Assembly (NCBI GenBank): GCA_021234155.1
Contig: JAJEKV010000130.1
Coordinates: 344,508 to 408,507, forward strand
From: Isoetes taiwanensis
Taxonomy: Eukaryota; Streptophyta; Lycopodiopsida; Isoetales; Isoetaceae
DNA length: 64,000 nt
Direction of reading: 5' to 3'
In this document: positions 2,921 through 56,763 of the stretch, in pieces
Layout: each line of letters opens with the position of its first letter
Position numbering within the stretch: position 1 is the first letter of the stretch
Notes under the pieces: model-generated
The model's database searches: none
What the model saw: the letters and a program-made list of their open reading frames with translations, nothing else
Told to the model about the DNA's origin: nothing
Position numbers and translations under genes: made by a program

Positions 2921-2923
2921 ATC

Positions 2924-4639: not shown

Positions 4640-5170
4640 ATTCAAAGAATTAAGCCTCGGTGTGAGAAGAATTCAGGAGATTTCAAAGGATATGCATGAT
4701 TATTTTGAGGATCCGACAAAACATGCCAATGCTTTAGATAAGGCTGCTATTGTGGGATGATTTGTAAGAAAGATAAAACCAAATGTACCTTTACAAGTAA
4801 GCGTTGCAGACAAAGAGAGACAAAGGTTATGCAAAAAGTGATTGCTAATGTGAAGGAAACTATGCGGTTGCACAAAGCGAACGAGAAAGATTGACATTAG
4901 CGACAAAAAGGTCAACTTTACAAATGGTTACATCCACGAGAGAATAAACTTAATCATGCGGCAAGAGCGAGGCTGCTTGAAGTGCCTAGAAAATCTATTT
5001 GTGCAGCCTATAGAAGAAGAGTAATGGCGAGAAAGGGAATCAGGTCCCTGGTCTATGTTTTTGAGGAAGAAAAGTCGATCCGATGCATTGATGAAGTGAA
5101 AAAGGTTGTCTCGGTTTACGGACTGAAAACACAAGAGTTTCTCCATACAAAAACATGTGAGGAAGTTTAA
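4640..5170 (+). pseudogene. Transposase N-terminal remnant
   Basis: Plus-strand coding-like sequence in several frames. One reads PTKHANALDKAAIVG and IKPNVPLQVSVADKERQR, another RLLEVPRKSICAAYRRRV followed by an Arg/Lys-rich stretch. The order and spacing ahead of the YPHINIAQQTF block suggest it is the N-terminal region of the same transposase. Frames are broken by several small indels, so no intact product is expected. The family assignment rests on context only. Confidence 0.4.
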
Positions 5171-7310: not shown

Positions 7311-7345
7311 TGCAATTGCGGTGTGTGTGGAGAAGGAGATGAATG
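7060..7345 (+). pseudogene. Transposase core fragment, second copy
   Basis: Contains QYPHINIAQQTFERLKPSFV followed by a Cys-rich RETCFLCRLSHPFG segment. I associate the pattern tyrosine-proline, an RTFEKLKP-like block, then C-C-R-Y-H with large transposases seen in lycophytes, mosses and algae (from memory, not searched). It precedes the DDE-like block at 8.2 kb. The reading frame is disrupted downstream near 7345-7400. Probably non-functional in this copy. Confidence 0.5.
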
Positions 7346-8149
7346 CAAAGCTAAATTGATGACTTACAAGTCTACTAGTGAGTTGTGGAGGGAACTTGTA
7401 TGTGAAAAGCAAGATCCCTTAGAAGAATGGCACAAAGCATTCTGTCGATGGTTGCTTGTAAATCTTGTGGTTTGAAAAGGTACATTTAACATTCATGTAT
7501 ATCTATTTTGGAAATGAGCTAACGTTGTAGCTTCAGTTGCCAATCTGTCCAAAGGAAAAAGACAATGAAAGACATTTTGTTGAGTGGAAGCAGTTTGAGA
7601 AGGTATATTAATTTGTTTTAGTGTTATTTACTTTTTTACGAAACTTGTTTAGGACCTAACATCACCAAATTGTCTGTGTGTATTTGCAGCAAGAGCACAG
7701 TAATTTGAAGGAGAGTTCAATTAAGTAAGGGGAGGAAAAAAACCAACTAAAGTCACAAGATTAGCATACAAGTACGCTCCGATTACAAAGAGTTTATTCA
7801 GGTATGCCAACAAGACACTTGTGCAATTTGTTCCACATAATTACGGCACATTGGCGGAGGCAAAGCAATTTAAGCAATGCTTAGCCAACTTTCCAAAGAA
7901 TACTATTGTATCGATAATTGATTTTCTTTGAGAACTATAGCCTCAAAATTCAGAAGGAAGTACAATCATGCCATTGGCATACCGACCAAATTACTATTCT
8001 TGTTCACATTACCTATAGACATCCTGAGAAAAGGAAGAGGAAGAATTTAGGAACGCGATCGCATCTTGTTGGATCGAGAAACAAGTTGGTCTGGATCGAA
8101 GAATAATTAAGGAGACACATTTTACATTTTCGATTGCAAGGAGCATTCA

Positions 8150-8500
8150 AGCCGGAGTTTGTCAACCTTTGCTTGAAAGTCCATGCGCGGTGGCTGAAAC
8201 AAATGAATATAGAGTACAGCAACCATGTTTTTGGGTGATGGTTGCACATCTCAATTCAAAGGTGCGGATTATACGGTACATAGGTAGAAATTTTGTGAAC
8301 AATCCTACTCTGGAATATTTATGGTTTTTTTGCAAGTTCTCATGGTAAAGGAGAACATGATGGAGCTGGAGCTGTTTTGAAATTAATTCTAGCAAAGGAG
8401 CAACGAGAGTATGATTCTGGGCGCAATGTGCTAAGGATGCGGTGGAATTCCTAAAATGGTACATTGAAAACCATCCTTGTGCCAATGAAAAAAAGGTATT
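8150..8500 (+). pseudogene. Transposase DDE-like segment
   Basis: Plus-strand frames read GDGCTSQFKGADYTVHR, then FASSHGKGEHDGAGAVLKLI and, in another frame, KDAVEFLKWYIENHPC. A D-G-C-x-x-Q-F-K block followed by S-H-G-K-G-x-x-D-G-x-G is typical of a large eukaryotic transposase catalytic core; the Asp of DGC and a later acidic residue would be catalytic. Two frameshifts and a stop break this copy. Together with 4640-5170 and 7060-7345 it supports an originally autonomous transposon. Confidence 0.5.
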
Positions 8501-8519
8501 ATTTTACGGTAGGCTGGCC

Positions 8520-9200
8520 TAGTGTTTGCTTTGATGGAATTGCTTTGATGCTTTGCTTTTTGCTTTTGCTTTGACTAACTTTGCTTTGAATTGGCCTTGC
8601 ATATGCTTTACGCATTCATTAAATTTGCTCTGCATTTGCTTTTACGCATTTATCTTGGCTTTCATTCAATTCGGTGGTTGTCTCATTACTTTTGATTTAC
8701 TGCTTTGATTATCTTTGCTCTCGATGGAATTGCTTTGATGCTTTTGCTTTTTGCTTTTGCTTTTGCTTTTGCTTTGATTAATGCTTTGACTAACTTTGCT
8801 TTGAATTGGCTTTCTGATTTGCTTTACGCATTCATTAAATTTGCTCTGCATTTGCTTTACGCATTTATCTTGGCTTTCATTCAATTCGGTGGTTGTCTCA
8901 TTACTTTTGCTTTGATTATCTTTGCTCGATGGAATTGCTTTGATGCTTTTGCTTTTGCTTTTGCTTTTTGCTTTTGCTTTGATTAATGCTTTGACTAACT
9001 TTGCTTTGAATTGGCTTTGCATTTGCTTTTCGCATTCATTAAATTTGCTCTGCATTTGCTTTGCATTTATGTTGGCTTTCATTCAATTCAGTGGATGTCT
9101 CATTACTTTTGATTTCTGCTTTGATTATCTTTGCTAACAATTTGCTCTTGCATTTGCTTTCTGAATTTGCTTTGCTTTGCTTTTGCATTAACTTGCTTTG
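8520..9200. repeat. GCTTTT-rich tandem repeat, about 3 x 200 bp
   Basis: Three tandem units (about 8527-8690, 8722-8905, 8925-9110) each run from GATGGAATTGCTTTGATGC through a GCTTTTGCTTTT microsatellite to TTCATTCAATTCGGTGG. The low-complexity Lys/Ser open frames across it on either strand are artefacts. The same GCTTTT motif is found beside both transposon termini. The array sits inside the decayed transposase region. Confidence 0.75.
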
Positions 9201-9229
9201 AGTCAATGCTTTCCGGTACTTTTGGAATA

Positions 9230-9570
9230 TTGAAGCTAAGGACATAGATAAGTCCGAAAAGAAGGAATGGAAAACTTTGAATGGGAGCTCAAAGTTACAT
9301 AGCATTAGGGCACTTGATAGGAAGGATCAACAAAAGTGAGTACCGGATGCCTTGCTTGTTTTTGCCAAGCATGTTTTCATGGAGATTGGGATAATTGCAT
9401 TAACAAAGAGAAGGATAGGAGGCTGGAAAGAAGGTGTATTAAAACCAAAGAAGTACAACCCGGTGAATGCAGGAAGACAAATTATCAATGAGGAGGAGGA
9501 AGAAGAAGATGATGATGATGAGGGTGAGCTTGATTACCTCGGTGACATCTTAAGTTGGGGATAACTTTCT
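9230..9570 (+). pseudogene. Transposase C-terminal-like segment with acidic tail
   Basis: A plus-strand frame encodes FAKHVFMEIGIIALTKRRIG, then GGWKEGVLKPKKYNP and an acidic run of Glu/Asp (about 15 residues) ending LDYLGDILSWG. It follows the GCTTTT array and could be the C-terminus of the transposase. No domain is recognised. Confidence 0.35.
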
Positions 9571-10539
9571 TTGTACCTGAAGAAAATAATGATGAGGGTG
9601 TCGACTTTTACTTACTTTGCGATTGTCTTGAGACAAAGCAAACATTCTTTGGATTCTTATGTTGATGAGTGGGGAATGTATACAATGTTGGAGAGGTTAT
9701 AGTATCGGGCCACTACTATCGAGCAATTAGACACTCTAACTTTTCAATTCTTTGGTGGACAAGCCGGTGGCTTCAATTCTGACCACTTGGTAAGGCATGT
9801 TAAGTTTGACATGAATGATATTGGTGGCAACATGTACATGTTAGGAGAAGAGACCTGCGGAAAAATCATGTCATCTTTACTGTTGGGAATGAGTTCAATG
9901 CTCTCGATTTGGGTTTCAGTTCACAAGTGCATAGTACAAAACATTGACATTCATATTGATATTGTTACAAGCGGTTTACAATAGAGTGCACAATGATGTG
10001 CATTCAAAATCGGCAACGGGGAAAAAAAATTTATGTATGCGGTATATTCACATCTAACATTACATTGCACAATGATGTGCATTCAAAATGTGGCAACCGG
10101 GGAAGAAAATTTTATGGTTGCAGTTTGTATTTTTCACATCTTACACTTTTCTTGACATTCCTTAACATCCATTGCCTCACAAGCTGTCTTCGGGTTTTTT
10201 GCAAAGGCGAGAACTCGATTAAGGTAAGAAGATATGGCAAGCCAAGCAAATCAAAGCAAATCAAGCAAAAAATAAATTGCTTACGAAGTTCCATCATGGC
10301 TGCACTTTTTTTTTCGAGGAATAGCCCATCTTGGATTCTCACGCACATGCTTGGAACACAAATCCAAAATATCAAAGTCTTCTTGTTTGACAATTTACGG
10401 GGCAAGATGTTCTTTCACAAATTTTGTAGGCTCGGGGACTTTCAGCCCAACCAAACAATACATCCTTCATCTTTTCAAACCATTACATTGCCCTCATCAA
10501 ATTTGAAATGAGCTAACTATTAAAGAATGGTACATTGGT
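9571..10539. other. Transposon interior with weak coding traces
   Basis: No intact gene. Two diverged copies of a roughly 70-bp motif (CACAATGATGTGCATTCAAAAT) lie at 9990-10070 and 10068-10140. Minus-strand frames at 10112-10480 (such as VKEHLAPRKLSNKK) may be the degraded C-terminal end of the FCP1-like gene just to the right. Confidence 0.35.
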
Positions 10540-10985
10540 GAAAAAAAAAGATTTATCTGAGAGAATCATCCACCAACAAGACATTCTTCATTTCAGGATA
10601 TGCTTCAATGACATAAGAAAGTGGCTTCAAATAGACCGGCTTATGCGGATTGGTAGGTGTGGATAAGGCAATTTCAAACATTGTGCTCCTTCCCAAATGA
10701 ACTTGAACTTAATAAGATAATCTGCGGGCAACATCTGCTGCAGGCACTCAATGATGTTGTAGCGGTTCATCTTGGACCAAATAGCAATTTCAAAATGTTC
10801 TAGGGCCCGATCCATGAAATTATGCAAACACAGTGCGCAAACCCGGCACTTTGTTGGTTGTGTACGGTTTCTTGATTTTGCGGGGTATTGGTGTTACGTG
10901 TTTGTCATGCTTATGCCAACTCTTCATAAGCACACCATTCAAATCAAGGACCAACAGGTTTGTCTTTGTGCCTCCCTACAAACAA
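10540..10985 (-). pseudogene. FCP1/SCP-like HAD phosphatase fragment carried by the transposon
   Basis: Minus-strand frames give LLVLDLNGVLMKSWHKHDKH, then FMDRALEHFEIAIWSKMNRY and FKFIWEGAQC, and finally MKNVLLVDDSLR. These match, in order, the catalytic nucleophile motif, the FEIAIWS core and the LLVDDS motif of FCP1-homology (NLI-interacting factor) phosphatases, which dephosphorylate proteins such as the RNA polymerase II tail. The nucleophile motif reads D-L-N-G, so the second acidic residue of D-x-D is Asn. At least one frameshift (near 10835) breaks the frame. It was either captured from the host or is an accessory gene of the element. Confidence 0.6.
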
Positions 10986-11226
10986 GAGATACATTTTAAA
11001 AACACTTTAGACACAAACTAAGATATGACATTGTCAACTATGAAAAGATTCTGATTCACATATTCAATGAAAACATTTTATTTTAATGAAAAGTTTCTGA
11101 TTCTAATATTTAGAAAAGATTTTTTTTTTTAGAAATCTTACAAATTGAAAATATGACAATGTCAAATCTGAGTGGTTTACGGGTTCAAAGTTTAGCCCTT
11201 CCCATTATAGGCATCTAATATTCTTT

Positions 11227-11790
11227 CTATTGGAGTCGTTTGTCACCTTTTGTAACTTGCACCTTCTCGGCAACTACTTTGGGAATAGGTTTGATTGCTT
11301 TCTTCTTTTTTTTGGCTGCCAATGCGCTTCCCTGGAATTCTTTGTATTCTTTGTTGCATCCTCTTGAACTTCTCTTCCATCCTCTGATCAGCTTCTTTGT
11401 CTTGCTCATCCATCTGGCTTTGGTAATTACATTTGTGGCATCGCAATTGTGACCACCAATTTGTCAGCTCTGCTGATCCACAATCGTGGGTTATGCATTC
11501 CACGGCATTGATGTGAATATCGAGTTGGAGTTCTGAGGATCGGGAAGAATAGTCTGCTGAGGTTCAAGGCTAGTTTCCTTGATATTGATTGTAGCTCTTC
11601 TCAACCTGCTCTTAATTCCCAAAAAGCTCCTTCCCTCGAAGAACTTGGAATATTTTCTAAAATACCTTCATATGCGGTCGAATCACCGGCATCTTCATTC
11701 ACATCAGCAAATTCACCAAATTCATCTAAATCCACATAGTCATCATGTTTCCTTTTTGTTGGTAACTTTTCTGCAAATAACATGACCAAA
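11227..11790 (-). pseudogene. Cys-rich and coiled-coil segment of transposon gene
   Basis: Minus-strand frames read LRCHKCNYQSQMDEQ, with nearby Cys residues (MECITHDCGSAE) suggesting a zinc ribbon, then a charged helical stretch DQRMEEKFKRMQQRIQRI. Upstream (11601-11790) DDYVDLDEFGEFADVNEDAG is acidic. It lies directly downstream of the RING-like gene and may be its next exon. Frames are interrupted and no function can be given. Confidence 0.35.
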
Positions 11791-11889
11791 ACTTTTCAAC
11801 AAAAGCAATTTTCACAAATAAAAGCAAAGCAAATAAATAATACTTACTTTCTTAGATGATTCTTACGTTTCTTTGTTCTTCTTTTTCTT

Positions 11890-13000
11890 CTCCTTCATTT
11901 GCATTGGTCTCTAAGCCAAGTTCTTCAAAGAATTTCATTGGGACATCCATAGAACAATCCGGGCATTTTTTTTATTCTCTACAAGAAGCGGGCTGCAAAT
12001 TAAATGATAAGCATGTTGGCATGGTAGCACTTTGCACTAATCTTGTAGTCATCTTGGAAAGCTAATCCACATCACGAGAACATGGTATTTCATAACACAA
12101 TGGCAACTGCTTTGCAATAACTTGAACTGAATCTGAGGGAGGCATTTACACTACTCAAGTTATAGCAATTAGCCCTGTAATTCTTCCATTTGAGCGGGTC
12201 CCTTTCTAGCACTCCATGTAATGCTTCCAATTCATTCTTCTTCTCAACTTGATGATCATCCACCTTTTCAATAAGGCTCTCTAATTTCCTGCAATAGAAT
12301 TTCTCCTGCATCAAGTCCTGCATCAAGTCCTCAATTCTTTTCTTATCAGAATCAGACTTTTCTACTTTGGATTCCAAAAAATTGATCTCAATTTTGCAAC
12401 TTTGCTTATGTCTTCTCTACGCTTGCCCGATCTGGCAATATCTCTCTCATTCACATGTCTGTTTAGGGTGATCTTGCTTGCAATGTCTGCCAGATCTTTC
12501 TTGCACAATTCAAATTCACCCTCCAACCTATTCACTTCTTCATCCAAGACCCTAACATTAAACATTAAGCTACCTCTGTTTAGCAAAGGAACAGCACTTG
12601 CCTGAGAGTAAACCTGTGCATTACTTGGCTTCAATGGTGTGGGATTTGGTGTGGTTCTTCTGCTGCTGCCTGGAGAGGCTGTTTCGGCCAGGGAATGTTT
12701 TGGTTCGAGCTTAACTAGCTTCCTTGGGTACCTGTCAACTTGTTCTTTAAATGAAACCCAGTTTATCTTGTGTTCGTCCGGGTTAAGAGCTGCTCGACTA
12801 CAATTCTCCCAAGTAAATGCAAAGGCAAATTTCTTCCTGAGCTCATTGTTCGCCAGACCATGAGGATAAAGCTCTGAGATAAGAAAATCTAGCAGTTCTT
12901 TTAAATGAGGCTTCACATAAAATTTCTTAATTTTACCGTCAGTGAAGCCATGATTCCAGACTGATTCCCAATCCTCGTCGTAATTTGATCCTCCAACCAT
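11890..13000 (-). CDS. Transposon-borne coiled-coil protein with RING-like finger
   Basis: ATG at 13000 opens a 212-residue frame beginning MVGGSNYDEDWESVW. It has a globular N-terminal domain, a Ser/Pro/Thr linker (about 100-135) and a coiled coil (from about 150). After a frameshift near 12370 the coiled coil continues (KRIEDLMQDLMQEKFYCRKL). Downstream frames give CGLAFQDDYKISAKCYH and KKCPDC, with Cys/His spacing like a RING or related zinc finger. It starts about 185 bp inside the right TIR, so the terminus probably carries its promoter. The role is unknown; a DNA-binding or ubiquitin-related accessory is possible. Part of it is duplicated at 5980-6745. Confidence 0.5.
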
Positions 13001-13162
13001 TTAATCCATTTTCGCGGTACCATTCAGCCGTCCGAAAGCTTCATCGCCATCGCGAGGAGGTAGTTATGGCGCCAAAATTCTGATTCCGGAGCTAACCGAA
13101 ATGTGAACCGAAAAAGTTTGCTTTTGCTTTGCTTTTTGCTTTGCTTTTTCGCGTTTTTTTGT

Positions 13163-13185
13163 ACCCGACTAGTGATTTTATACCC
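13163..13185 (-). repeat. Right terminal inverted repeat
   Basis: On the minus strand it reads GGGTATAAAATCACTAGTCG, matching the left end. It is followed on the plus strand by TSD ACTT (13186-13189). GCTTTT motifs lie at 13119-13147. Confidence 0.8.
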
Positions 13186-14006
13186 ACTTCATCTTTCTGT
13201 AATCTAGCCAGCATAATAAGAGATTCCTTACCAATGGGAGCAATCACACCAAGATTTCTGCTGTTCCAGAGTGTGTGCTGGAACTGCTCACCATGTATCT
13301 CCACGTTTCTGCTAGACATGATAGGGAAAGGGCCACAATTGAAAAGGTTCATTTCTTTGATATTATACCTGAGTAATGCAGTTTTGACCTTGTCTTCTTC
13401 ACTTTGTGGCTGCTGATCATCCACTGCTACTGCTGCCTGGACCTGTTCTAGATCAGCAATCATGTTTATGTCAAAAAGACAGTTGTCCAATAACTGAGGT
13501 GGACTATCAGGTTTGTCAGCTGCAACAACTTCAGAGTCATTAGGTGGATAGGATATTTTCAGAGAATTTGTGGCTTCTAACACAGTAAGGCCTTTGATAA
13601 ATGCCATAAGGTCAAATACGTCATTTGTATCGGCAAGGATATGAGCAGCAGGAAGGCTAAGATAGGCTTGTTCAATAAGGGCTTTGCACTGCTCATAATC
13701 TTTGGATTTAGAACTGCATACTAGATTCAGTATCTTGTCAAACCCTAGAAAAAGTATGGCAGAAATATCTCCTTCAGCAAGGCCACACTCCTTATTAATG
13801 AAAACTTTGTGCAATTCTTTAATCATAATGCATCCAAGCACTGTTTGTACTGCCTTATTAGGAGCAGTAATTCCAGCTGCTGCATACCCAAAGTTACCAA
13901 GCTCATTGTACCAACCTGACCTGTTAGTGAGCGGTTGCTGCTGATAATTTGTGTGCTGATTGCATACTTTCAGAGTAATGGGATCAATATTAACTTCAGC
14001 CCCTTC
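13186..14006 (-). CDS. Copy A exon 2, 5' block, unknown N-terminal domain
   Basis: The exon starts after an acceptor (GATATTTTAG|GAAGGG) and is open for about 270 codons until the ACTT target site. It begins EGAEVNIDPITLKVCNQHTN, contains LAEGDISAILFLGFDKILN and an acidic Gln/Glu linker (about residues 165-185), and reads up to LARLQKDE at the break. Exon 1 ends in phase 0 (PLNQ), so the proteins join as NQ-EG. I recognise no enzyme domain; by position it is the N-terminal part of the retroelement polyprotein. An apparent ATG at 13841 is internal and the apparent C-terminus reaching 13092 is transposon sequence. Confidence 0.6.
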
Positions 14007-14125
14007 CTAAAATATCAGAAAGTTAGAATAAAGGAATTATTAATAGATTTCTTAATATTCAATGTAGAAATTAATAAGCAGTCACAAGAAGGTCTCTAAG
14101 GCTTACATTGGTAAGACCAATGATC

Positions 14126-14162
14126 AGAAATCGGGTTAAATATAGACTAGCCGAAGACAAAT
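14126..14162. repeat. Left copy of 37-bp target-site-like direct repeat
   Basis: The 37-bp segment containing GGGTTAAATATAGACTAGCC is repeated at 15707-15743 with two mismatches. The pair brackets the 1,544-bp insertion. Long, variable target duplications are a known habit of PLEs. Confidence 0.65.
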
Positions 14163-14630
14163 AATATATATAGAATCTTACTACTCTACTCTGCTCACTA
14201 GCCTTAGATCATGTTCACTCTTAATTCTGAGTTTGAAATTTAAGTGTTCTTATTATAACCCAAGTGTTAATAATTGTCTATTGACAAGTTGCATAAACCT
14301 TTAAAGGCAATGACCTTATGGTTGAGGGTACCCAATTTAATAATAAATTGATTCTTATATAAATGCTCATATGATAATCCAAATGTTAATAGTGGTCTAG
14401 GGACATGTTACAATTTTTTGAAAAGTAATAACCTTAGGTATTGGGGGCACATAAGCTATGAATACATTGATTTTATTTACTCAAAGGGATCGAAACAATG
14501 ACTTACTCTATGGGTGATATTTAACATTTTCTTATATTTAAGAAACATGGAAAATTTCTATAATTAAGTATAGGAATAAGATGAATGCAACATTAGCATC
14601 ATTGACTAAACCAAATTCATATTTTATTTT
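14163..14630 (+). repeat. Dispersed 468-bp repeat, copy 1
   Basis: Starts at a short TA run (ATATATATAGAATCTTACTA). It has a close inverted copy at 49592-50066, adjacent to retroelement copy B. No coding potential seen. It ends exactly where the inverted repeat arm begins. Confidence 0.7.
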
Positions 14631-15707
14631 TTATTTTTGGATAGGACCACAATACACTTGAAGGGAACCCATAACCATTGGGCTTATTATTCATAAAATT
14701 GATACATGGAAAATTCCTGTATCCACGTTGGCAAGCTCGAACTCTATGGTATGAACCCTAATCTGACGGAGTGACTTAACCCTAAAGGTATGGCGGAAGT
14801 GAACTGATTACATGGCATTTTCGATCTATTTACAGCTAGTTATATATGTAACAGAATCATGTTTGTTATAAAGGATGAGCTATGCTGGCCGGATCAGCAG
14901 CCACAAACGGATACGGGTACTAATCTGGGGCCTAGATCTGATCGTAGCATTCTTGAAAGATGAAAATTAAGGCCTAATACATCAGACTAATGGGCAGATT
15001 AAGGCATCAAACGAAGTTTTTCCAGCTATATAAGGATCTAATGCTTATCTATTGCTTGGAGTTAGAGATGGCTGGGCGCCCTGAGGGATCCCAAAACAGG
15101 GGCCACACTAGGCATAAACTCATGGAGTTATTGAGAAAGGCAGGGATTGAGCACCCTAGCCCCCAGCCTTCCAAGGCACAACTGATGGAGCTATGCAAAT
15201 TGCATAAGATTGATCCTAATAAATGTAGTGCCAGTGGGAGCATCACGAAATTCATCCCTACTCTCCAGCCATGCTCAAATACTGCTGCAAATCTGGGCAA
15301 GTCCAAGGAAGTAGCAGGAAGGAGCATGGAGATTGAATATGTAGCTGATTCAGCAAGTGATGAAGACGATTTTATTGAGGAGGAGATACCACTCAATCAG
15401 GTTTACTCATTATTCTATTTCTTAGCACAATTGGCTTATATTGGTTTTTGACTGATTGGTCTGTGATGCCTCATGTTGAAAATTATTCCTGGGTTTATAA
15501 CTCAGTAATTACATTATAAGCTAATTGGCATGACTGAAATTAACCTTATGGTTGCTGGTATAAATCGGATTGAATTTAGACATTATTCAGTATTTGGTGT
15601 GGTTTATGCTAGATAGGGATGTTTATTAGGATTTAATGTTGTTATAATCAGATGGCAGATGCTTCATGTTCATGTCTCATGCTTTCCCCTAATGGTATAG
15701 TTGTTTA
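14631..15707 (+). repeat. Inverted repeat, left arm (1,077 bp)
   Basis: Reverse complement of 16585-17661; both arms are exactly 1,077 bp. The only difference I found is CCT/CCC in one proline codon (about 15082). It contains about 437 bp upstream of exon 1, exon 1 itself and the first 307 bp of the intron. The spacer is 877 bp, so a transcript could fold into a long double-stranded RNA. Confidence 0.85.
15068..15400 (+). pseudogene. Duplicated exon 1 of the retroelement (inverted copy)
   Basis: Encodes the same 111 residues as exon 1 at 16892-17224 (MAGRPEGSQNRGHTRHKLME onward, ending PLNQ before a GT donor). It is followed only by 307 bp of intron and has no exon 2 in this orientation, so it is an orphan exon. 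It lies in the left arm of the inverted repeat. Confidence 0.75.
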
Positions 15708-15743
15708 GAAATTGGGTTAAATATAGACTAGCCTAAGACAAAT
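15707..15743. repeat. Right copy of 37-bp target-site-like direct repeat
   Basis: Matches 14126-14162 with two mismatches. Marks the right edge of the 1,544-bp insertion. Confidence 0.65.
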
Positions 15744-16120
15744 CCTAACAATTTGACAAAGGATCCAAGTAGCCAAAACTACTGGACTTATCTGACCCTA
15801 TAAAGGGAAGCCTTAGAGACCATTGATTTAAGTATAATCTAGAAGAGATAATAAGACTAAGTATGCAAGTAAAAAACCAATTACATAGGCCAGCAGAGAT
15901 GAACTGAAAAACTTCAGATTTAAACTGTCATAAATGAGTATCAATAATGAAATACATTTGAGTATTATTACTATTGCCATCAAATCAGCACAACTTTAGG
16001 GTGAAACCCAAAAGATATTACCTGAAGTATGTTAAAAATATTAATTACAAAGAACCATAAAGTGTAGAAATCCGTTATAATATATTCTTCAAGTCCATCA
16101 ACCACCACAAACTACAAGAG

Positions 16121-16255
16121 ATTGGGAGAAGAATGATTGGTTACCTGCAGTCAAACAGATCACTGGTTAGCCTATTGGGTAACAGTGAAATTGACTAGCA
16201 GGTAAGCTATAATCATTCTTGGCATTTTCAGCCCTTTACCCAAGGATAAAAAATG
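16121..16255 (-). ncRNA. Structured intron element I, copy A
   Basis: On the gene strand, a small GGGCTGAAAATGCC hairpin is followed by a long hairpin. Its stems are AGAATGATT/AATCATTCT, TTACCTGC/GCAGGTAA, AGTCAA/TTGACT and TCACTG/CAGTGA, capped by a loop TTACCCAATAGGCTAAC. The sequence aligns with 51150-51265 and 55921-56030. In those copies the loop and TTACCTG stem are conserved while inner and outer stems change on both sides. It lies in intron 1, about 640 bp after the donor. No match to a known ribozyme was recognised. Confidence 0.6.
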
Positions 16256-16584: not shown

Positions 16585-17661
16585 TAAACAACTATACCAT
16601 TAGGGGAAAGCATGAGACATGAACATGAAGCATCTGCCATCTGATTATAACAACATTAAATCCTAATAAACATCCCTATCTAGCATAAACCACACCAAAT
16701 ACTGAATAATGTCTAAATTCAATCCGATTTATACCAGCAACCATAAGGTTAATTTCAGTCATGCCAATTAGCTTATAATGTAATTACTGAGTTATAAACC
16801 CAGGAATAATTTTCAACATGAGGCATCACAGACCAATCAGTCAAAAACCAATATAAGCCAATTGTGCTAAGAAATAGAATAATGAGTAAACCTGATTGAG
16901 TGGTATCTCCTCCTCAATAAAATCGTCTTCATCACTTGCTGAATCAGCTACATATTCAATCTCCATGCTCCTTCCTGCTACTTCCTTGGACTTGCCCAGA
17001 TTTGCAGCAGTATTTGAGCATGGCTGGAGAGTAGGGATGAATTTCGTGATGCTCCCACTGGCACTACATTTATTAGGATCAATCTTATGCAATTTGCATA
17101 GCTCCATCAGTTGTGCCTTGGAAGGCTGGGGGCTAGGGTGCTCAATCCCTGCCTTTCTCAATAACTCCATGAGTTTATGCCTAGTGTGGCCCCTGTTTTG
17201 GGATCCCTCGGGGCGCCCAGCCATCTCTAACTCCAAGCAATAGATAAGCATTAGATCCTTATATAGCTGGAAAAACTTCGTTTGATGCCTTAATCTGCCC
17301 ATTAGTCTGATGTATTAGGCCTTAATTTTCATCTTTCAAGAATGCTACGATCAGATCTAGGCCCCAGATTAGTACCCGTATCCGTTTGTGGCTGCTGATC
17401 CGGCCAGCATAGCTCATCCTTTATAACAAACATGATTCTGTTACATATATAACTAGCTGTAAATAGATCGAAAATGCCATGTAATCAGTTCACTTCCGCC
17501 ATACCTTTAGGGTTAAGTCACTCCGTCAGATTAGGGTTCATACCATAGAGTTCGAGCTTGCCAACGTGGATACAGGAATTTTCCATGTATCAATTTTATG
17601 AATAATAAGCCCAATGGTTATGGGTTCCCTTCAAGTGTATTGTGGTCCTATCCAAAAATAA
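16585..17661 (-). repeat. Inverted repeat, right arm, with 5' region of copy A
   Basis: Reverse complement of 14631-15707. It ends at 17661 with TATTTTTGGATAGGACC on the gene strand, which probably marks the 5' end of the retroelement, because unrelated sequence follows. The 437 bp before the exon 1 ATG would hold any promoter; no clear TATA box or initiator could be assigned. Confidence 0.8.
16892..17224 (-). CDS. Copy A exon 1, SAP-like N-terminal domain
   Basis: I chose the ATG at 17224 (MAGRPEG) rather than the upstream one at 17302, because copy C starts at the equivalent MTRPEG. The 111-residue exon has a basic N-terminus (RPEGSQNRGHTRHKLMELL), a helix-turn-helix-like segment (PSKAQLMELCKLHKIDPN) reminiscent of SAP DNA-binding folds, and an acidic tail (DSASDEDDFIEEE). 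It ends PLNQ at a donor CAG|GTTTAC. Copies B and C end their exon 1 in LNQ or PNQ at the same place. A nucleic-acid-binding role for the retroelement protein is inferred. Confidence 0.65.
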
Positions 17662-18918
17662 CAAGGTGCTGCGCACGGAGGGTTGCCCTCAATGGACCGA
17701 GAATGTGTTTTCATATTTTTTGTTTAGTCATTTTGTGTATCGGGCCTTATTAATGGTATAAACATGGGATTCGCTGTGCGTGCATATGTGTGTTCAAGCT
17801 GAAAATATATTCATTCAAAGAACAAGATGCCAATCATATCCACCCTGGTTTTTATACCAGGCCACTAATCTTACAAAATCTCTCCACCGTTCGTTTGTAT
17901 ATTCTATATTTACTTATTACAATCATATTCTATTGTTATCATGTATATTTAAGCATCGTTTTAAGTCTATATTTTAGAAACTTTGGTATTTCTAATAGAC
18001 TCCATTATTGTCTCAATATTAACTAAACTCCTATATATATTATCCTAAATCCTAGTAAATGTGTGTCCGACATTGCTTGGCTAATGTCCTAGCATGTGTT
18101 TTACTCGGCCTTTAACGTCCATATGTATGTTAACGTTCTTTCCGCGCCCTACATATGCCCGGCGCTGTCGCGCATATGTAGGGCGTGTGCTTATATCGGC
18201 CTTTCGCCATAGATGGTCTTCTCTCTGATCCACATGCATTGACGGGCATTGATTAGGTGTTGTCTAGCTAGATGTGCGAGGGTTATAAAGGAGACTGATA
18301 ATTTGTACGAGGGTTATAAAGGAGAGTGATAATTTGTTCAGATAGTTTGGGTTGTATGTTTATGTGGGCACTTGGGAGTTTGCCAAGTTTGGGTTGTATG
18401 TTTATGGCACACTTGGGCGTTTTCCACTTTTGCCAATTTTGTTCTTCGCGTGTATTTTTGACGTAATATATTCGTTTTGGAACTAATAAAATGTATGAAA
18501 ATCTAAGGTGTTAAATGTGTAAACTACATATTATTTCCTTAGTAACACTAGTGTAAATATATAGAACAAATCTTTCACTAAATGTGTTTCCTAGTTCTCT
18601 AGACGGTAAATGGGTGCTCGACAAGCTCGAGCATTATGCGTAGTGACAGACATAGAAGTATATGGAATAATGCTAAATTGTCAATGGCTATGCCTCATTG
18701 TCTACAACATTCCTTGCGCTTGAAAGCTTTTGCTATTAAAGAACCTCAGTAGCCACGTCGAGCATACATAGGCATTTGATATACGGAAGGGTATGTATTT
18801 GTGTCAAACAGTATTTTGCCATGCACCTTAGAATGGTTGCCACATGGCGACTGGTTTAGGCGCTGGTTTAGGCGCTGGTTCCCGCTAACGTGTTGACGGA
18901 TCATTTTAGGGCTACGAA
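17662..18918. other. Intergenic flank, no gene recognised
   Basis: AT-rich sequence with no convincing ORF. Seen: a palindrome-like GCCCTACATATGC ... GCATATGTAGGGC (about 18146-18185); a short duplication GAGGGTTATAAAGGAGA (18279, 18308); TTTGGGTTGTATGTTTATG twice (18345, 18387); and GGCGCTGGTTTA twice just before the LINE. Confidence 0.5.
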
Positions 18919-19626: not shown

Positions 19627-20886
19627 TTGAAGGTGTTAGCATGGAATGTACGTGGATTGTCAAAAGAGAAAATGGATGCATCAGTAGAGACATGGCAAGA
19701 TTCAGATTTGTTACTATTATCAGAGACATGGGAACACCAATCACGTCCCCTTCCAGAACTACAGGGATTTCAGATTATAGGGAGTGCCTGGAATGAGAAA
19801 GACCCAGGAGCAGGAAGAGGATATGGTGGTGTATCAGCTTATGCTAAATCAGATATAGCGCACAATATACACATACACTCAAAGCATGAGATGAGACAAT
19901 ATATATGGATTCGTATTGAACTCTCTGGTCAGACTAAATACATTGCTCTGTGTTATTTCGCCCCACTGAACATGCACATATATGATCACGCAGAATTGTG
20001 CAGAGCCAACCCATTCCATCAGTTATGCAAAGATACACTCCAAAATCAGGAATTGGGAGAGGTCCTCCTTGTTGGAGACTTTAATGCAAGGATCAAAACA
20101 CTGCAAACAACCTCTTATGTAACAATAGGAGATATCCGTTTGCTTGAGGAAGAAGATCCTGCATTCAAAAGACAGTCAGCAGATAATGTTAGAAACAGTA
20201 TGGGAGATCTATTTTTGGAGTTGGGAACAATCTGCCATCTCAAAATCCTGAATGGCATCACGATTTTTCCAGATTCTTGTGCAAACACTTGTTTCAGCCA
20301 CTTGGGATCTAGTACGGTTGATTACCTACTTGCAAACAGTCAAAATTCAGTAAGGAATTTCTATGTGGCAAATAAGATGCCAGAATCTGACCATGCTCCA
20401 CTGTTTTTCGAACTGGCAGGATTAGCGTCCGCTAAAAGAAGCCAAGCTAAGTTTACTCCAAAGCTAAAGTTGAATTATCAGAGGAGTAGCCAGTATGCAG
20501 AGCATCTAGAAGATATGCTAACGTATGCTACATGGACAGGAGAGGTAGGAAAGGATGCCACTGAGTTCTCAAACATGTTACATACAGCAGCTAGAAAAGT
20601 TTTTGGATGCACAAAACAAAGGAAAGCAGGGAGCAATGGTTGGTGGGATGCAGAATGCAGGGCAGCAAGGGCAGCATTACCTACTGGATGCCTATGCAAA
20701 CCCAAATGGTATAAGGCACTAATACGAGCAAAGAAGAGAAGATACCTTCAGACACGGCAAGAGTCCCTTCAGAAATGGTTTTGCGAGCACCCAAAAACCT
20801 TTTGGAAACAACTATCAACTAAAACGACCCAAGCAGATCTAGACCAGGCGCTACACATGGTTCGAGAAATCTATTCTCACAATCTT
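19627..20886 (+). CDS. LINE ORF2, endonuclease domain
   Basis: 420 open codons beginning MKVLAWNVRGLSKEK. Apurinic-like endonuclease motifs are all visible: WNVRG (Asn), LLSETWE (Glu), YGGVSAYAK, LLVGDFNAR (Asp/Asn), SSTVDYLLAN and MPESDHAPL (Asp/His). This enzyme nicks target DNA to prime reverse transcription. From about residue 270 comes the linker to RT with basic segments (AKKRRYLQTRQES). The stop at about 20887 is a frameshift: RT coding continues in other frames. Confidence 0.9.
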
Positions 20887-21931
20887 TGAAACCATGCAAT
20901 CGAGAGGTTGTAGATTCAGATATGTTCACAACATGGGATGTGACAGAGGCACTTAAAGATATGCCAAATGGGAAGGCAAAATTGATCTAAGGTCTAAGCA
21001 TTGAGCTATTGAAATGGAGTGGAGATAAATCCATAGAGGTTGTAACAAAGTTGATGAACCAAGGCATTATACAAGGTCCGCCACAAAGCTGGAAGGAAAA
21101 AAGCGAGTTTTCCAATCCACAAAACAGGGGATAAGAACAATGTGCGTAATTACGGGGACGATTTTAATCGGCAAAGATGTTCTCTAAGCTGCTAGGAAGT
21201 CTATTAGCAAAAAAACTCGGTTTATGGGCTGATGAAAATGAGAAAAGAGCTCATTTGCCAGTGCGGTTTGAAAACAACATCGCACTCTTGATCACACACT
21301 TAGCTTGCGAGTGTTGATCGAAAAACAAAACAACCCGAGGCGTTGTATTTGGCCTTCATTGACTTCACAAAAGCATTTGATAATCGTTCCTCGAAAAGGA
21401 CTTAGGGATCTGAATGGAACACCTTGGAGTACCAAAGGAAATCGAGGAGCTATCTCCCAATTATACTCAAGTGATAGCCAAATTATCTGTGGAATTTGGT
21501 GAAGAAATTCAAGCACTATAGGTGTTGGTGGGGGGTGTCCGTTGTCCCCAACACTGTTCGGTCTATACATAGATGAGCTTGAAGAGTGGTTAAGAACAAG
21601 AGGTTTAGCAGGTTCTCGGTTGGGTCATTTCTGGTCCAACTTCTATTGTATCTTGATGGCGTAATCTTGGTGGCAAACAAACCTGAAGGTTTACAATCCC
21701 ATCTTGACAATCTGGCAACGTTTTGTGAGGTAAGACATATGAAAGTCAATTTGGCCAAATCGAAAGTGATGGTGTTTGGGACTGTAAGTAGACCTACATT
21801 CACATTTAAGGGTGAGACACTAGAAATTGTAGATAGCTACAAATATCTGGGACTGGAATTTTCGGCAAAATATAGTTGGAAAGAGTGTATCAGGAAACGG
21901 ATAGAGGGCAGCAAGAGAGCTTTATATGGTA
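20887..21931 (+). pseudogene. LINE ORF2, reverse transcriptase domain (frameshifted)
   Basis: RT motifs appear in shifting frames: LSIELLKWSGDKS, NNVRNY, FIDFTKAFD (motif A, about 21352), GCPLSPTLFGLYIDELEEW (motif B, about 21536) and YLDGVILVAN at about 21647. The last should read Y-x-D-D; the second Asp is Gly here, which would abolish catalysis. The region then runs LATFCEVRHMKVNLAKSKVM and YKYLGLEFSAKYSWKECI, typical post-RT LINE sequence. It is cut at GGTA|CTAG by Helitron H1 (21931/21932). Confidence 0.8.
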
Positions 21932-22099
21932 CTAGTAATAGTGCCCAGCGTTGCTGGGCTAACGTTGGGAACCTATTTATGAGCTTACTCGATTCAATCC
22001 ACATTATTTTTGTGTCTATTTATTATTAGGTTCATGCTTGCATTTTTGGTATTTGTTTATAATAATTTAGATAACCTCTTTATTTCAAACACACAATAA

Positions 22100-31572: not shown

Positions 31573-31885
31573 TCAGTTCCTTACGAACAATCCGCCAATG
31601 TAGAAGCGGTTGTCTTTAGTGACATCATCACTCTCATGTTTATCTGTACAAGGACCTTTTATCCTGCTAATACTATCTTCTGTAGATAGTATCTCCCAAT
31701 GAGAATCAAACACTACAAGCATCAGCCGACCATCAAATGAAAAAGATGTTGCTTTGATACTTGCTGAACTCATTGAAACTACGTAGTCCAAATCAGACGC
31801 AAGTTTTCCATGACCAAATTGGTCCAGCTTAAAATTAGACCACAACTTCATTCTGCCACATAGATCAGCTAGTAATAAAGTATAT
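31573..31885 (-). pseudogene. WD40 (rabconnectin-3-like) exon, part 2, downstream of the insertion
   Basis: Continues the exon broken at 40438-40443. After removal of one ATATAC copy the frame runs SEQYT-LLLADLCGRMKLW. It then reads SFSFDGRLMLVVFDSHWEIL and RFYIGGLFVRN, which fit beta-propeller strands and the GGLF motif of plant rabconnectin-3-like proteins. WDR7/rabconnectin proteins act with the V-ATPase on endomembranes; the plant role is less clear. No stop interrupts this part. Confidence 0.55.
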
Positions 31886-31929
31886 TCCTGGGGGGTGCAG
31901 CTAATGTAAGGTCTATATGGCATGTGCGT

Positions 31930-32170
31930 GCACAGGGTTAAAGTAAAAGGCCCTTATACGGTTAAAAATCCACAAAAAAACCCCCTTATACGGAATTTTT
32001 TAGAAACTCTAGATATACCCCCTACCATATACGTACGCTGAGTTCTATAAATTCCTTCAAACCCCCTACCATATTTGTACAATGAGTTTTCTAAATTCAA
32101 CCAAACCCCTTACCATATTTTTATAATCGGTTTCATAAATTTAGAGCAGGACCTCATCTATAAGCGCTAC
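31930..32170. repeat. Subterminal repeats of the 8.5-kb element
   Basis: Repeated CCCTTATACGG (31949, 31983) and ACCCCCTACCATAT followed by TGAGTT (about 32020, 32063, 32106). Similar CCCCCTAACGTA and TACGTATACGTACGG motifs lie near the other end (40260-40360). They may be transposase binding sites. Confidence 0.55.
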
Positions 32171-49591: not shown

Positions 49592-50066
49592 CAGAAAATA
49601 AGATATGAATTTTGTTTAGTCAATGATGCTAATGTTGCATTCATCTTATTCCTATACTTAATTATAGAAATTTTCCATGTTTCTTAAATATAAGAAAATG
49701 TTAAATATCACCCATAGAGTAAGTCATTGTTTCGATCCCTTTGAGTAAATAAAATCAATGTATTCATAGCTTATGTGCCCCCAATACCTAAGGTTATTAC
49801 GTTTCAAAAAATTGTAACATGTCCCTAGACCACTATTAACATTTGGATTATCATATGAGCATTTATATAAGAATCAATTTATTATTAAATTGGGTACCCT
49901 CAACCATAAGGTCATTGCCTTTAAAGGTTTATGCAACTTGTCAATAGACAATTATTAACACTTGGGTTATAATAAGAACACTTAAATTTCAAACTCAGAA
50001 TTAAGAGTGAACATGATCTAAGGCTAGTGAGCAGAGTAGAGTAGTAAGATTCTATATATATATATA
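49592..50066 (-). repeat. Dispersed 468-bp repeat, copy 2 (inverted relative to copy 1)
   Basis: Reverse complement of 14163-14630 with a few differences and a longer TA run at its start (50053-50074). It abuts structured element II of copy B. Confidence 0.75.
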
Positions 50067-50074
50067 TATAGCCA

Positions 50075-50150
50075 GTTTTGCCTTAACCTCCCAGAGGCCA
50101 AGGCTTATCAGACCCATTATCAATCAATGGGGAGCCCCATGGAACCATGC
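50075..50150 (-). ncRNA. Structured intron element II, copy B (truncated)
   Basis: On the gene strand: CCCATTGATTGATAATGGG hairpin, conserved TCTGATAAG, then GCCTT...AAGGC enclosing CCTC/GAGG. Same order as copies A and C with different stem bases. It is cut before the later hairpins, where the TA-rich repeat starts. Confidence 0.5.
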
Positions 50151-51149
50151 CTACCAATCATGCTGCAGCAGTGAGGATAAATGCAAACTTGAACTAAGCA
50201 TGTGTTGGCGTATAGATAGTAGAGTAAACAGGCTATGAACCCATCAAAATAGATGCTTAGGTGCAGAAATGCATGGTCAAATACCACCAAATTATACAAT
50301 ATGTATTGCATGCAACAAGCAGATAGTTAATTGAGCTTTTTCTGGTGAAAAAATGCATGGTTCAGTAAAACTTTTCAGCAAATGTGCAAGTTTATGCCTT
50401 AAAGTGCATAATTCGAAGCATGATTATAGTGCATACAGTTAAAGATGGAGATAGATACCTTTAGTAAGGTTCATCCCTATGCTGGACACAAGTGTACAAA
50501 GATAGAATGGAAATAAAGTCTGCACATAGGTTCATTTTGCCAACAAACCAAAAACAACAACAACAATGTGCATTTCATGTTGAATCTTTTGATTCCTTTA
50601 AAAATCATATTTCTAACATATTTTATTGGCACTCCATGTATGTCTCATGCACGAACTCCCCTTACAACAAAATATAAAGCATGAGCATGCTGGTATTTAT
50701 GTATCCATTACATAAAACAAACTGAAATATGCAACAGCAAATAAAGAGCCTTGAAGTTTGGCTGTGAGGCAAACGCATGGTGGTAACTGCACACAATATT
50801 TACTGAAATATGCTGCAGCAGATTACGGCCCTCGTCACCTTGCTAGAAATAGATACAATAATCTTTTTTTTCGGAAAAAGGAGCATATGCAAAGTCAAAT
50901 AGTGCATTCCTTATAAAGAAATTTAAGACCATATTTCTTAAATCAAAGATATAAGCTGTAGCAGATACAGAGTATTACCAGTAGCCCTTTTCGTAGTTTT
51001 TCTCCAAATAACTTGCATTACTAAAACCACAACATTGGGGTATACCGTTTATGCAGGACGTTTTTACAAACACTTGTACAAACATTTTAGTCCGGTCCTT
51101 GAATCAGCACGCTCCAAAGACATCACTAAACTGAAATAATGGAGTAAGG
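50151..51149 (-). other. Intron of copy B, no gene
   Basis: AT-rich with no coding-like ORF. Lies between structured elements II and I in the same arrangement as copies A and C. Confidence 0.4.
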
Positions 51150-51265
51150 GAAATGGAACTCCGGTTACCTGCACCCAATCAATACCTTAGTTAGCTTAAT
51201 AGGTAAAAAGGCAAGGGGCGTCAGGTAAGCTTGAGAATTCCATGGCTTATCGCCCTTTGCCCTTT
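51150..51265 (-). ncRNA. Structured intron element I, copy B
   Basis: On the gene strand: a GGGCGATAAGCC hairpin, then stems ATGGAA/TTCCAT, TTACCTG/CAGGTAA, CGCCC/GGGTG and GCCTT/AAGGT, with loop TTACCTATTAAGCTAAC. Compared with copy A, the inner and outer stems changed on both sides while TTACCTG and the GCTAAC loop stayed. Lies about 125-240 bp into intron 1 of copy B. Confidence 0.6.
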
Positions 51266-51389
51266 GCCACTTAAATCAGTAAGCAAAAGATAGAAATGCA
51301 TAAAACATTAAAGAATTACAGACATAGCATTATGTGTCTAGTTTTGAGGTCAACTAGAACTATAAGCTACGCTAGACAAAATAGAAAAC

Positions 51390-51480
51390 CTGGTTCAAAG
51401 GAAGGACGCCATCATCAGATTCGCCTTCCACAGCTCTATAATATGCACTGGTGTATATGTCTGTAGTCATTAAGCAGGGC
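51390..51480 (-). pseudogene. Copy B exon 1, 3' end
   Basis: Reads AVEGESDDGVLPLNQ before the donor AACCAG|GTTTTC. This matches the acidic tail and PLNQ end of copy A exon 1 and PNQ of copy C. Upstream sequence contains a stop and only weak similarity (FGRNQRVSRHDS), so most of exon 1 is lost or strongly diverged. Confidence 0.45.
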
Positions 51481-54501: not shown

Positions 54502-54816
54502 ATGACGAGGCCTGAGGGCGCTCCCAACAAGGGACAAACTAGGACTAAGCTGATATAATTTCTCAGAAGACATGGCCTTGAGCATGGTGCTTCTCAGCCC
54601 TCTAAAGCTCAATTGTTGGAACTCTGCAGACAGCATGGACTTGATCCCAACAGGGACAAGCATGATACTGGTATTAAGAAATTTATACCAGGCCAAGGGC
54701 TTGGTAACAATGTTCCCAGAGTTTTGGAAGCACCTGCAAGCACTGTGGAGGTGGTTCCCCTTTCTGAATCTGATAGAGATGACGAATTTGAGGATGTGGA
54801 GATCCAGCCTAATCAG
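54502..54816 (+). pseudogene. Copy C exon 1, SAP-like domain with a stop
   Basis: Starts MTRPEGAPNKGQTRTKLI, then a TAA in place of the Glu codon of copy A, then QPSKAQLLELCRQHGLDPN, GIKKFIPGQ, and an acidic tail (SDRDDEFEDVEIQPNQ) at donor CAG|GTCTTC. Alignment with copy A over the whole exon is clear, at roughly 40-50 percent identity. The premature stop suggests decay or a sequence error. Confidence 0.65.
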
Positions 54817-55920
54817 GTCTTCTTTTGTTTTAAATCTGACTGATTTAATACAGTGCTTTCTAGTAGTTCATTTTATATATTTCTACTAGATAATACCCCA
54901 TAATTCCTACCACTCCAGTGTGCTTAAATCCGGGATCATATTACTGATCTTGTACTGATATGAATTTGATTGATGTAAGCTTGAAGGAATTTAAGGAATT
55001 TTTAACCTTACCTTACAAATTTTATCTGGTAGTCAGATGACTAGAATTCTCTTTAATTTGCTACCATAAAAATTGAAAAACCAGAATATATGCTCTTCCA
55101 TGGGATGTTCAAACCAGATAACTTGATATGGCCTGATTACTACCTGGTTAGGATACTATTTTACTTTAGTTGTTTGAAGTTTTTTCATTCCTATTGAATG
55201 ATGATTTTCTCGGTGTAATTTTGTCATCTCTATTCTTATTGATCTGAGAAATTGCAGCAGGCCTTACTCGTGAGAATGTTCCTATAAGATTTTTCATTCC
55301 TTAAGATCCACAAAATAGGAACCCATGGCTTTCTACCCTTTAATTTGATAGAATTATTTCCCCTAGGTGTTTGGATGCCTAAAGTTCATAATATGTCTCA
55401 ATAGATTCAGTTAATCTTATTTGCCTTTTAATTTACTGGTTCCAACCTGATTATACATATATTTGATGGTGAGGCGATAAATTATGATAAGTAGGTTGGG
55501 ATATGGTCATTGTTTAAATGTAGTGTTAGGTAGGTGGCAGTAGCATGATAGATCCTGCTATTCGGGTTTTCCCTTTGATCATTTAAGAAAGTTTACAAGT
55601 CTGTTTTGAGTATATGCTGATCCTGGCTCCTGCATGCTGACCATGTCCCATCTTGCACTCCATTTTTCCTGTTACCACTGTATATTTCCCTTGAACCATG
55701 CTTACTAGCAAGCCTCTGGACTATTTGTAGCTCAGTAGGTGGATAGTTGTTGTATTGTAATGCTAATACTATAGTTTTATTTAAATTTTTCTCGGCATCT
55801 TATGACTGGCCTTAAAGGATTTAGGTAGCAGACGTTTGGATGATCTACTATTATTTCTATCATTGTCTCAGTAGCTATGGTTTATCTTATGAATTCTTGC
55901 TATTTCTCTCTTAAATTTGA
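54817..55920 (+). other. Intron 1 of copy C, 5' part
   Basis: No ORF or known repeat. Lies between the exon 1 donor and structured element I. Confidence 0.45.
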
Positions 55921-56030
55921 GGGTAAAGGGCCGAAAGGCCAAGATTGTTCATAGCTTACCTGCTAGCATATGCATTTTTACCCTTCTTAGGCTAACAAGT
56001 GCATTTTTGCTGCAGGTAACCGAACTCCTT
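55921..56030 (+). ncRNA. Structured intron element I, copy C
   Basis: GGGCCGAAAGGCC hairpin, then GTTC/GAAC, TTACCTGC/GCAGGTAA, AGCA/TGCT and ATGCATTT/AAGTGCAT stems with loop TTACCCTTCTTAGGCTAAC. Stem bases differ from copies A and B but pairing holds. Conserved blocks are GGGTAAAGGGC, AGCTTACCTG, TTACC, GCTAAC and GCAGGTAACC. Confidence 0.6.
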
Positions 56031-56610
56031 CTCCCTTGTCTTGTGATGTTCTAGGCATTCTGCATGCTTGCGGATATGAACAATTATTGTACTGTTTTAA
56101 AAGCTAGATGGTAAGATATCTTACCAGATTATTTTCTGTATATTTGGCAGCCGAACACATGGTACTTTATTTTCTATCACTTATATGTTCATTTCCTTTG
56201 AGTATACTTCAATGTCTTTGGTTCTTACTTTATATTTTTATATGAAATCAAATTACTAGTTGATGGTGGTCATTTTCCTTGTCCAAATTTCTTATAAAAC
56301 ATATTTAAATTCTGTCTAAGGATAGGACTCTTTTTTCTTTACTGTTTACTTGTCTATAGTTATTACAACAGGTTTTAATTATTGAAACAAACATAGGCTG
56401 TAATCAGTTCTGATATTCTGATAGCTTATAGGAGCAATTTATTTTTTGATGGTAATTATATCAAAGGTTTTTCATGAAATATTTTTGCCTAGTATGATCT
56501 TTTCTCCTTTATTGTTTACTGCTTCATATTCAACTGGTTTTGATTTTTGAAGCAACCCTAGGTTGTAATCTGTTCTGGTAGTCTGGAATTTTTTAGGTTT
56601 AATTTGGGAA

Positions 56611-56752
56611 TCTCTAAGGCCTCCCCTTTTGGGGTCTGATAAGTCCAATCTAGTTATAGATTTGGATGACTTGACAAGTCACAAGGATTTGTTCAGTTTA
56701 GTATATATATCCTATTTCAGGTCTCTGGTTTTACCAGAGTGGGCCTTAGAGA
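56611..56752 (+). ncRNA. Structured intron element II, copy C (intact)
   Basis: Closing stem TCTCTAAGGCC/GGCCTTAGAGA. Inside: CCCCTTTTGGGG hairpin, TCTGATAAGTCC, ATCTA/TAGAT hairpin, TGACTTGACAAGTCA hairpin and CTCTGGTTTTACCAGAG hairpin. Copy A has the same five-part plan with different bases in four stems. This is the only uninterrupted copy in the window. Confidence 0.6.
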
Positions 56753-56763
56753 TAACAAGTTGT

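Follow-up and report, generated by a model that had tools for sequence, protein, structure and literature searches.

A conserved, covarying RNA-like fold in the intron of tandem Penelope-like elements

Results

Three copies of a fold among the exons of a Penelope-like element

The stretch of DNA analysed here (64,000 nucleotides, hereafter the window) contains three occurrences, A, B and C, of a 122-nt fold that we call structure I, and its orientation relative to an upstream exon is identical in all three. In A and C, a second common block lies downstream of structure I in the intron and folds into a closed multi-helix structure, structure II. These folds are accompanied by coding pieces of a Penelope-like element (PLE) that ends in a reverse transcriptase (RT). 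The features of the window are listed below; the three copies of structure I were each identified by fold, by covariation and by a match to a covariance model built from A, B and C.

246-2365 (1961-2365 and 246-2039), minus strand: PLE RT frames, with 60-64% identity to RT in five tandem arrays
2444-3136, minus strand: later PLE exon of the copy A unit, with matches in five autonomous arrays
13095-14006, minus strand: PLE exon 2 of copy A, after the acceptor ...ctgatattttag at 14007; exons 51-53% identical stand at the matching place in five autonomous arrays
14091-14163, minus strand: structure II of copy A, 3' part beyond an insert
15708-15821, minus strand: structure II of copy A, 5' part to just past the CTATAT site, interrupted by the insert
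16121-16244, minus strand: structure I, copy A
16892-17224, minus strand: PLE exon 1 of copy A, ending ...EEEIPLNQ, donor CAG|GT at 16891
50062-50138, minus strand: structure II of copy B, diverged 5' part only, homology ending in (TA)n; read from the sequence
51145-51266, minus strand: structure I, copy B
51390-51420, minus strand: end of PLE exon 1 of copy B, ...DDGVLPLNQ, donor CAG|GT at 51389; the remainder of the exon is unrecognised
54508-54816, plus strand: PLE exon 1 of copy C, with one in-frame stop, ending ...EIQPNQ, donor CAG|GT at 54817
55918-56039, plus strand: structure I, copy C
56610-56754, plus strand: structure II of copy C, complete, with UAUAUAU linker; fold z = -5.3, covariation on 16 copies (itself locus L001)

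The window RT has 61 homologues (best E 3e-100), with Selaginella and Chara among the named ones, and it matches Pfam RVT_1 below the cut-off only. These relatives, together with a frame at 31576-31953 that we take to be MED16-like (Pfam gave nothing there), suggest that the host is a plant. No homologue of exon 1 or exon 2 was found among 5.8 billion proteins at E up to 1, an AlphaFold model of exon 2 from its single sequence was uninformative (mean pLDDT 31.9), and viral contigs gave no match. A GIY-YIG domain was found neither in the window RT nor in six exon pieces of arrays L031 and L037, and a scan of the three forward frames of L031 for the GIY-YIG motif was empty, but an unrecognised PLE exon could hold such a domain. 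Judged by its type of sequence and by the literature on such elements (PMC6431247, PMC9033089), the element is classed as Penelope-like.

We searched the 1.66-Gb genome (1110 contigs) with copies C and A as queries, which gave 710 and 434 candidates, respectively; 40 of each were scored, all of them matched, and 30 of each were taken on as loci, among which window copy C is L001 and window copy A is L039. Many structure I loci are on the same strand, 4-9 kb apart. We then read seven array stretches of 9.9 kb, chosen because they had two structure I matches close together, and all seven consist of direct repeats at 4.2-8.4 kb, head to tail and 92-99.6% identical. Five of them (L031, L032, L033, L036 and L037) have the unit order structure I, exon 2, two coding pieces, RT, exon 1 and next structure I, and structure I is thus positioned in the intron that separates exons 1 and 2 of a gene that ends in RT. 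That the copies belong to a retroelement, and the intron to a PLE, had been a guess in an earlier note on this DNA, and the tandem PLE units from the genome bear it out; the same units led us to reject the intron of a host gene as the setting of structure I. The next copy downstream of A is 19.7 kb away, just beyond the window (L040).

A donor CAG|GT in the same phase follows ..NQ in A, B and C, and was found by pattern in three of the seven arrays (L031, L033 and L034) and not in the other four. The acceptor AG|GAAGG precedes exon 2 in A (TTTTAG|GAAGG) and in L031 (TTTTCAG|GAAGG), and occurs at the matching place in L049, L055 and L066. We infer that the intron between exon 1 and exon 2 is spliced. 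The copy A unit has a duplicated region (5260-12494) between its exon 2 and its RT, with direct duplications at spacings of about 1.3 and 5.7 kb, which include the end of a 212-aa ORF at 12365-13000. The window also contains a LINE-like element (19627-22026, plus strand) with an ORF of the endonuclease/exonuclease family at 19627-20889 and an RT fragment at 21583-22026.

Fold and covariation of structure I

A fixed-letter pattern of structure I matches the window exactly three times, with no match in 100 shuffles, and the covariance model built from A, B and C finds the same three sites only (E up to 10). All three copies share a GGC/GCC hairpin and a stem TTACCTG/CAGGTAA. The stems at one level read AGTCAA/TTGACT in A, CGCCC/GGGTG in B and AGCA/TGCT in C, and those at the next level TCACTG/CAGTGA in A, UGCCUU/AAGGUA in B and ATGCATTT/AAGTGCAT in C; the outer stems are AGAATGATT/AATCATTCT, ATGGAA/TTCCAT and GTTC/GAAC, and outermost is a further stem closed by GGG/CCC. 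The result is a compact two-hairpin, multi-stem architecture with conserved bulges and C-C mismatches, in which many of the most conserved letters sit in helices; in copy A, the inverted stems are perfect. The motifs CTTACCTG, GCTAAC and GCAGGTAACC are common to all three window copies and nearly invariant in a larger set, and structure I contains CTAAC, TGCAG and CAG|GTAA in full.

With sense defined as the reading strand of the upstream exon, the sense fold compared with dinucleotide shuffles gave z = -6.4 (A), -3.0 (B) and -4.7 (C), and the antisense fold -6.0 (A), -2.0 (B) and -4.1 (C). A coarser 120-nt scan did not separate the strands cleanly (sense/antisense z of -5.1/-7.4 for A, -3.9/-0.9 for B and -4.2/-4.3 for C), and here the antisense of copy A folds better than the sense.

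A hand alignment of A, B and C comprises 42 pairs, three of which are absent from C. In 23 of these pairs both columns are invariant, two show changes on one side and 17 show changes on both sides, with full pairing that is partly built in, the pairs having been drawn from the copies' own folds (the three outer P2 pairs of C by homology). When strands were swapped between copies as a crossed control, pairing in variable columns fell from 55/55 to 52/106. A larger alignment was made from the window and 35 of 67 loci of the same genome, with 44 matches and 38 distinct sequences. Here, both sides change in 27 of 41 pairs, and 92.8% of 1532 cells are paired. The covariation score of 0.279 was reached by none of 500 shuffles (shuffled score 0.113), cells with a two-sided change number 146, where shuffles average 54.6, and a shift of the partner by 1-3 columns brings pairing down to 28-46%. 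These alignments lean towards the structure, as they were fitted to the model, and the shuffles ignore kinship while the slides preserve it; both controls nevertheless stay well below the observed values. A single genome supplied every copy. In a smaller set of 19 distinct sequences the result was similar, with two-sided changes in 23 of 41 pairs.

In the larger set, G-U cells outnumber A-C cells by 69 to 28, with pairs defined on the sense strand and 10 of the 28 A-C cells in one possibly misaligned pair. This excess leans towards selection on the sense RNA, and the strand evidence for structure I is weak. The six G-U cells and no A-C cells of the hand alignment were rejected as evidence on the strand, those pairs having come from sense-strand folds.

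Structure I is confirmed as a conserved, covarying RNA-like fold in a PLE intron. The three positions and the consistent orientation claimed in the earlier note stand, confirmed by the pattern and the covariance model, and every stem it had named is present, the second-level stem of B in the slightly longer form given by the fold. The compensatory changes that it described were upheld in the window and again with more copies from the genome.

Structure II and the 3' ends of the element

Structure II lies 0.3-1.1 kb downstream of structure I. Copy C folds with z = -5.3 on the sense and -5.4 on the antisense strand. Covariation was assessed on 16 of the 24 distinct complete copies: both sides differ in 13 of 41 pairs, and pairing holds in 98.8% of 653 cells. 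Four of the five covariation measures exceeded all of 500 shuffles, and the fifth, further pair types, did not (132/500). A stem UCNGA/UCNGA, whose middle pair is U-A, A-U or C-G, closes a loop with UAUAU.

We compared 60 loci at structure II. Of these, 26 continue through it, 20 exit at UAUAU into a (TA) run of at least 12, 13 were classed as 'other' and one gave no match. Eight of the 13 exit at the same UAUAU with a shorter or broken TA run (L004, L015, L026, L027, L040, L048, L050 and L060); of the remainder, L066 continues, L039 is the insert-bearing copy A, and L024, L059 and L063 show no such site. In total, 28 of the 60 loci end at one UAUAU of structure II, followed by TA-rich sequence, in contexts that were all read, and they are not to be counted as independent events, as many of the 60 are near-identical relatives. 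In window copy B, too, the left part of structure II is followed by (TA)n, in which the copy stops. Thirteen arrays with spacings below 10 kb have at least two copies among the loci. The downstream-most listed copy exits at UAUAU in 10 of these arrays, and none of their 16 upstream copies does so. In the three exceptions (C1052, C223 and C812) the last listed copy goes on through structure II. So does L022, one of a further pair (C93) whose partner is not among the loci; copies beyond the last listed ones may explain this. An element that ends at UAUAU beside (TA)n is what would be expected of internal initiation of cDNA primed in a (TA)n target.

The insert within structure II of copy A (14164-15707, minus strand) is 1.5 kb long and consists of an inverted, 99.8% identical copy of 16585-17664 and 467 bp that are also found at 49595-50061 beside copy B. 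The insert is bordered by a near-identical repeat of ~35 bp around GGCTAGTCTATATTTAACCC. In copy C, a perfect palindrome, TGGTAAGATATCTTACCA, lies between structures I and II (56109-56126), where GGTAAG/CTTACC occurs again.

Parts kept in distant families and in arrays without RT

Eight loci of other families were compared with L031. Structure I is 71-77% identical in seven of them and exon 1 59-69% in all eight, and where the two were aligned separately structure I is the better kept. Within the intron, six of the eight align only at structure I and then from structure II onward (61-64%); the exceptions are L060, which aligns at exon 1 and structure I only, and L016, which aligns across. In closer families, a larger part of the intron is alignable.

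Two of the seven arrays, L034 and L035, gave no match to RT, and matches to exon 2 were seen in L035 only, at E 0.064 or worse, none of them convincing. At the DNA level, they share structure I, structure II and exon 1 (in L035 a start-like piece of it) with the autonomous units, and also keep roughly 75-110 nt just past the RT frame. The simplest reason would be that the parts kept are those needed in cis for copying in trans.

Discussion

A candidate template module within an intron

In our reading, the PLE probably carries in its intron a cis-acting RNA module in two halves: structure I would be the half that is recognised and mark unspliced RNA as template, and structure II would hold the start of reverse transcription. 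The gene would be split into exon 1, an intron with structures I and II, and the exons that end in RT. With units arranged head to tail, a read-through transcript would bear exon 1 and structures I and II of the next unit on its 3' side. The PLE protein, made from spliced mRNA, would bind structure I of such an unspliced read-through RNA. Reverse transcription would begin within the template, at the UAUAU that structure II leaves unpaired; a (TA)n end of the target DNA would pair with this UAUAU and act as primer, and cDNA would be made through the upstream unit. Splicing would strip both folds from the protein-coding mRNA; with the folds absent from it, only intron-containing RNA could be the template, and the intron would therefore be kept. 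The exact role of structure I, its binding by RT and the geometry of the primer are deduced here from sequence, and structure I is linked to cDNA initiation by being retained together with structure II at a distance of 0.3-1.1 kb; the motifs CTAAC, TGCAG and CAG|GTAA within the fold would also suit a role in splicing.

Alternative explanations for structure I

The earlier note had offered three functions: a packaging signal, a new ribozyme or a splicing regulator. A packaging or template signal fits best, because two arrays in which RT and exon 2 went undetected keep the fold and because the 3' ends of the element lie in the downstream companion fold. A splicing regulator stands as a rival: structure I would be a splicing or intron-retention switch that hides CTAAC, TGCAG|G and CAG|GTAA, which we take from their consensus to be a branch point, a 3' splice site and a U1 site, and some RNA would stay unspliced. 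The constancy of CTTACCTG, GCTAAC and GCAGGTAACC agrees with this, and PMC12218528 describes plant introns in which folds cover alternative 3' splice sites. However, the acceptor before exon 2 (in A, L031, L049, L055 and L066) lies outside the fold, every one of the motifs also forms part of a paired stem, and the fold is retained where RT and a convincing exon 2 are missing. Downstream of the internal TGCAG, no exon is conserved among A, B and C and stops are present; with the exon 2 acceptor elsewhere, this TGCAG is disfavoured as a true 3' splice site. We therefore regard a splicing switch as unlikely. A different factor might bind structure I, for instance one acting in the export or translation of unspliced RNA. 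Retention in the RT-less arrays would be equally expected of such a site, and structure I is hundreds of bases from the RT start site, but structure II would then be the sole signal read by RT, and we consider this explanation rather improbable.

The compactness of the covarying fold and its conserved bulges and C-C mismatches would suit a self-cleaving ribozyme of a new class, and PLEs bearing hammerhead ribozymes are described in PMC6431247 and PMC11167929. The earlier note saw no hammerhead core in structure I, and indeed no hammerhead was found in the window (curated cut-offs, and E up to 3) or in five PLE loci (E up to 1). No other Rfam family matched the window at curated cut-offs or the five loci at E up to 1; weak matches were far below the cut-offs, one of them (25.6 of 80 bits) overlapping copy A on the other strand. 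No family comes near its cut-off, and the known RNA families were rejected for structure I. Hepatitis-delta-like, hairpin and twister ribozymes presumably do not fit either. Moreover, helices hold many of the letters that vary least, and the element ends in structure II instead of at structure I; a new ribozyme is unsupported and very unlikely. It seems just as improbable that structure I is a DNA palindrome or MITE-like repeat whose paired changes arose through hairpin-mediated correction. The perfect inverted stems of copy A and the low antisense fold energies would be in keeping with a palindrome, but the two-hairpin, multi-stem architecture, the constant intron place between the exons of tandem PLE units, in one kind of element, and the retention in RT-less arrays are not, nor is the excess of G-U over A-C cells, although that count used pairs chosen on the sense strand. 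MITEs are short and mobile, with terminal inverted repeats and a target duplication of their own; duplications close around the fold were sought by eye in copy A.

Relation to known systems

Retroviral packaging signals can lie in an intron, where a fold marks the unspliced RNA. The analogy to the module proposed here is one of function only; the element, the enzyme and the fold are unrelated. To our knowledge, no other covarying RNA module is known, hammerheads apart, in a PLE that lacks a recognisable endonuclease. PLEs of this kind from spike moss, conifers and rotifers (Athena) are like the present element in RT sequence, head-to-tail units, a genomic intron and insertion at AT-rich DNA. 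AT-rich targets of PLEs, and microsatellites as landing sites of transposable elements, are already on record in PMC12477314. The present element differs from these PLEs in its two covarying intron folds, one of which holds the 3' end of the element; we found no such module in the accessible parts of their literature.

According to PMC11167929, RNA from the first 172 nt of the ORF is required by the PLE protein of Anolis, and cDNA starts internally, in a stem-loop. This element, Poseidon (PAc), and the one described here would have in common a start inside the template in a stem-loop region, an AT-rich target and a need for nearby 5' RNA; in PAc, however, the signal is in the pLTR/ORF and there is a GIY-YIG enzyme and a hammerhead, whereas here the signal would be in the intron, the target is TA repeats, and neither enzyme domain nor hammerhead was found. 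In Terminons (PMC6431247), the PLE RNA similarly exposes a short repeat beside a fold for pairing with repetitive target DNA. There, a hammerhead stands by telomeric repeats, whereas here a multi-helix fold without a hammerhead match has a UAUAU that would face (TA)n.

A 2013 paper considered antisense or unspliced sense templates for the retention of introns by PLEs and left the matter between the two (PMC3846280). A template signal and a cDNA start both lying within the intron would speak for unspliced sense RNA as the template, and an intron-borne module would make the intron question testable with short RNAs. Such a module would also give a handle on how these PLEs choose TA-repeat sites. 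Telomerase and PLEs have a common ancestry, and the keeping of introns sets PLEs apart from most retroelements. We suggest, tentatively, that structures I and II could be a built-in counterpart of telomerase RNA, a scaffold read by a telomerase-related RT, with a binding domain (structure I) and a short 'template-like' UAUAU in a multi-helix loop (structure II) that would pair with (TA)n ends, the intronic placement making genomic RNA and mRNA mutually exclusive. If true, this would answer why PLEs keep introns. Cis-acting retroelement RNA is known as a kind; new would be the intron location, the two-fold design and the start facing (TA)n. No published description of structures I or II was found in a literature search that had the key PLE works of 2007 and 2021 outside its reach.

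Lastly, a block of ~107 nt past the RT frame (5913-6019 in L031, 5714-5820 in L037) is common to the RT-less arrays L034 and L035 and is possibly a third cis-acting piece. Array L034 itself has a 4.2/8.4-kb repeat structure with both typical and divergent copies of structure I (5090-5215, 53 bits).
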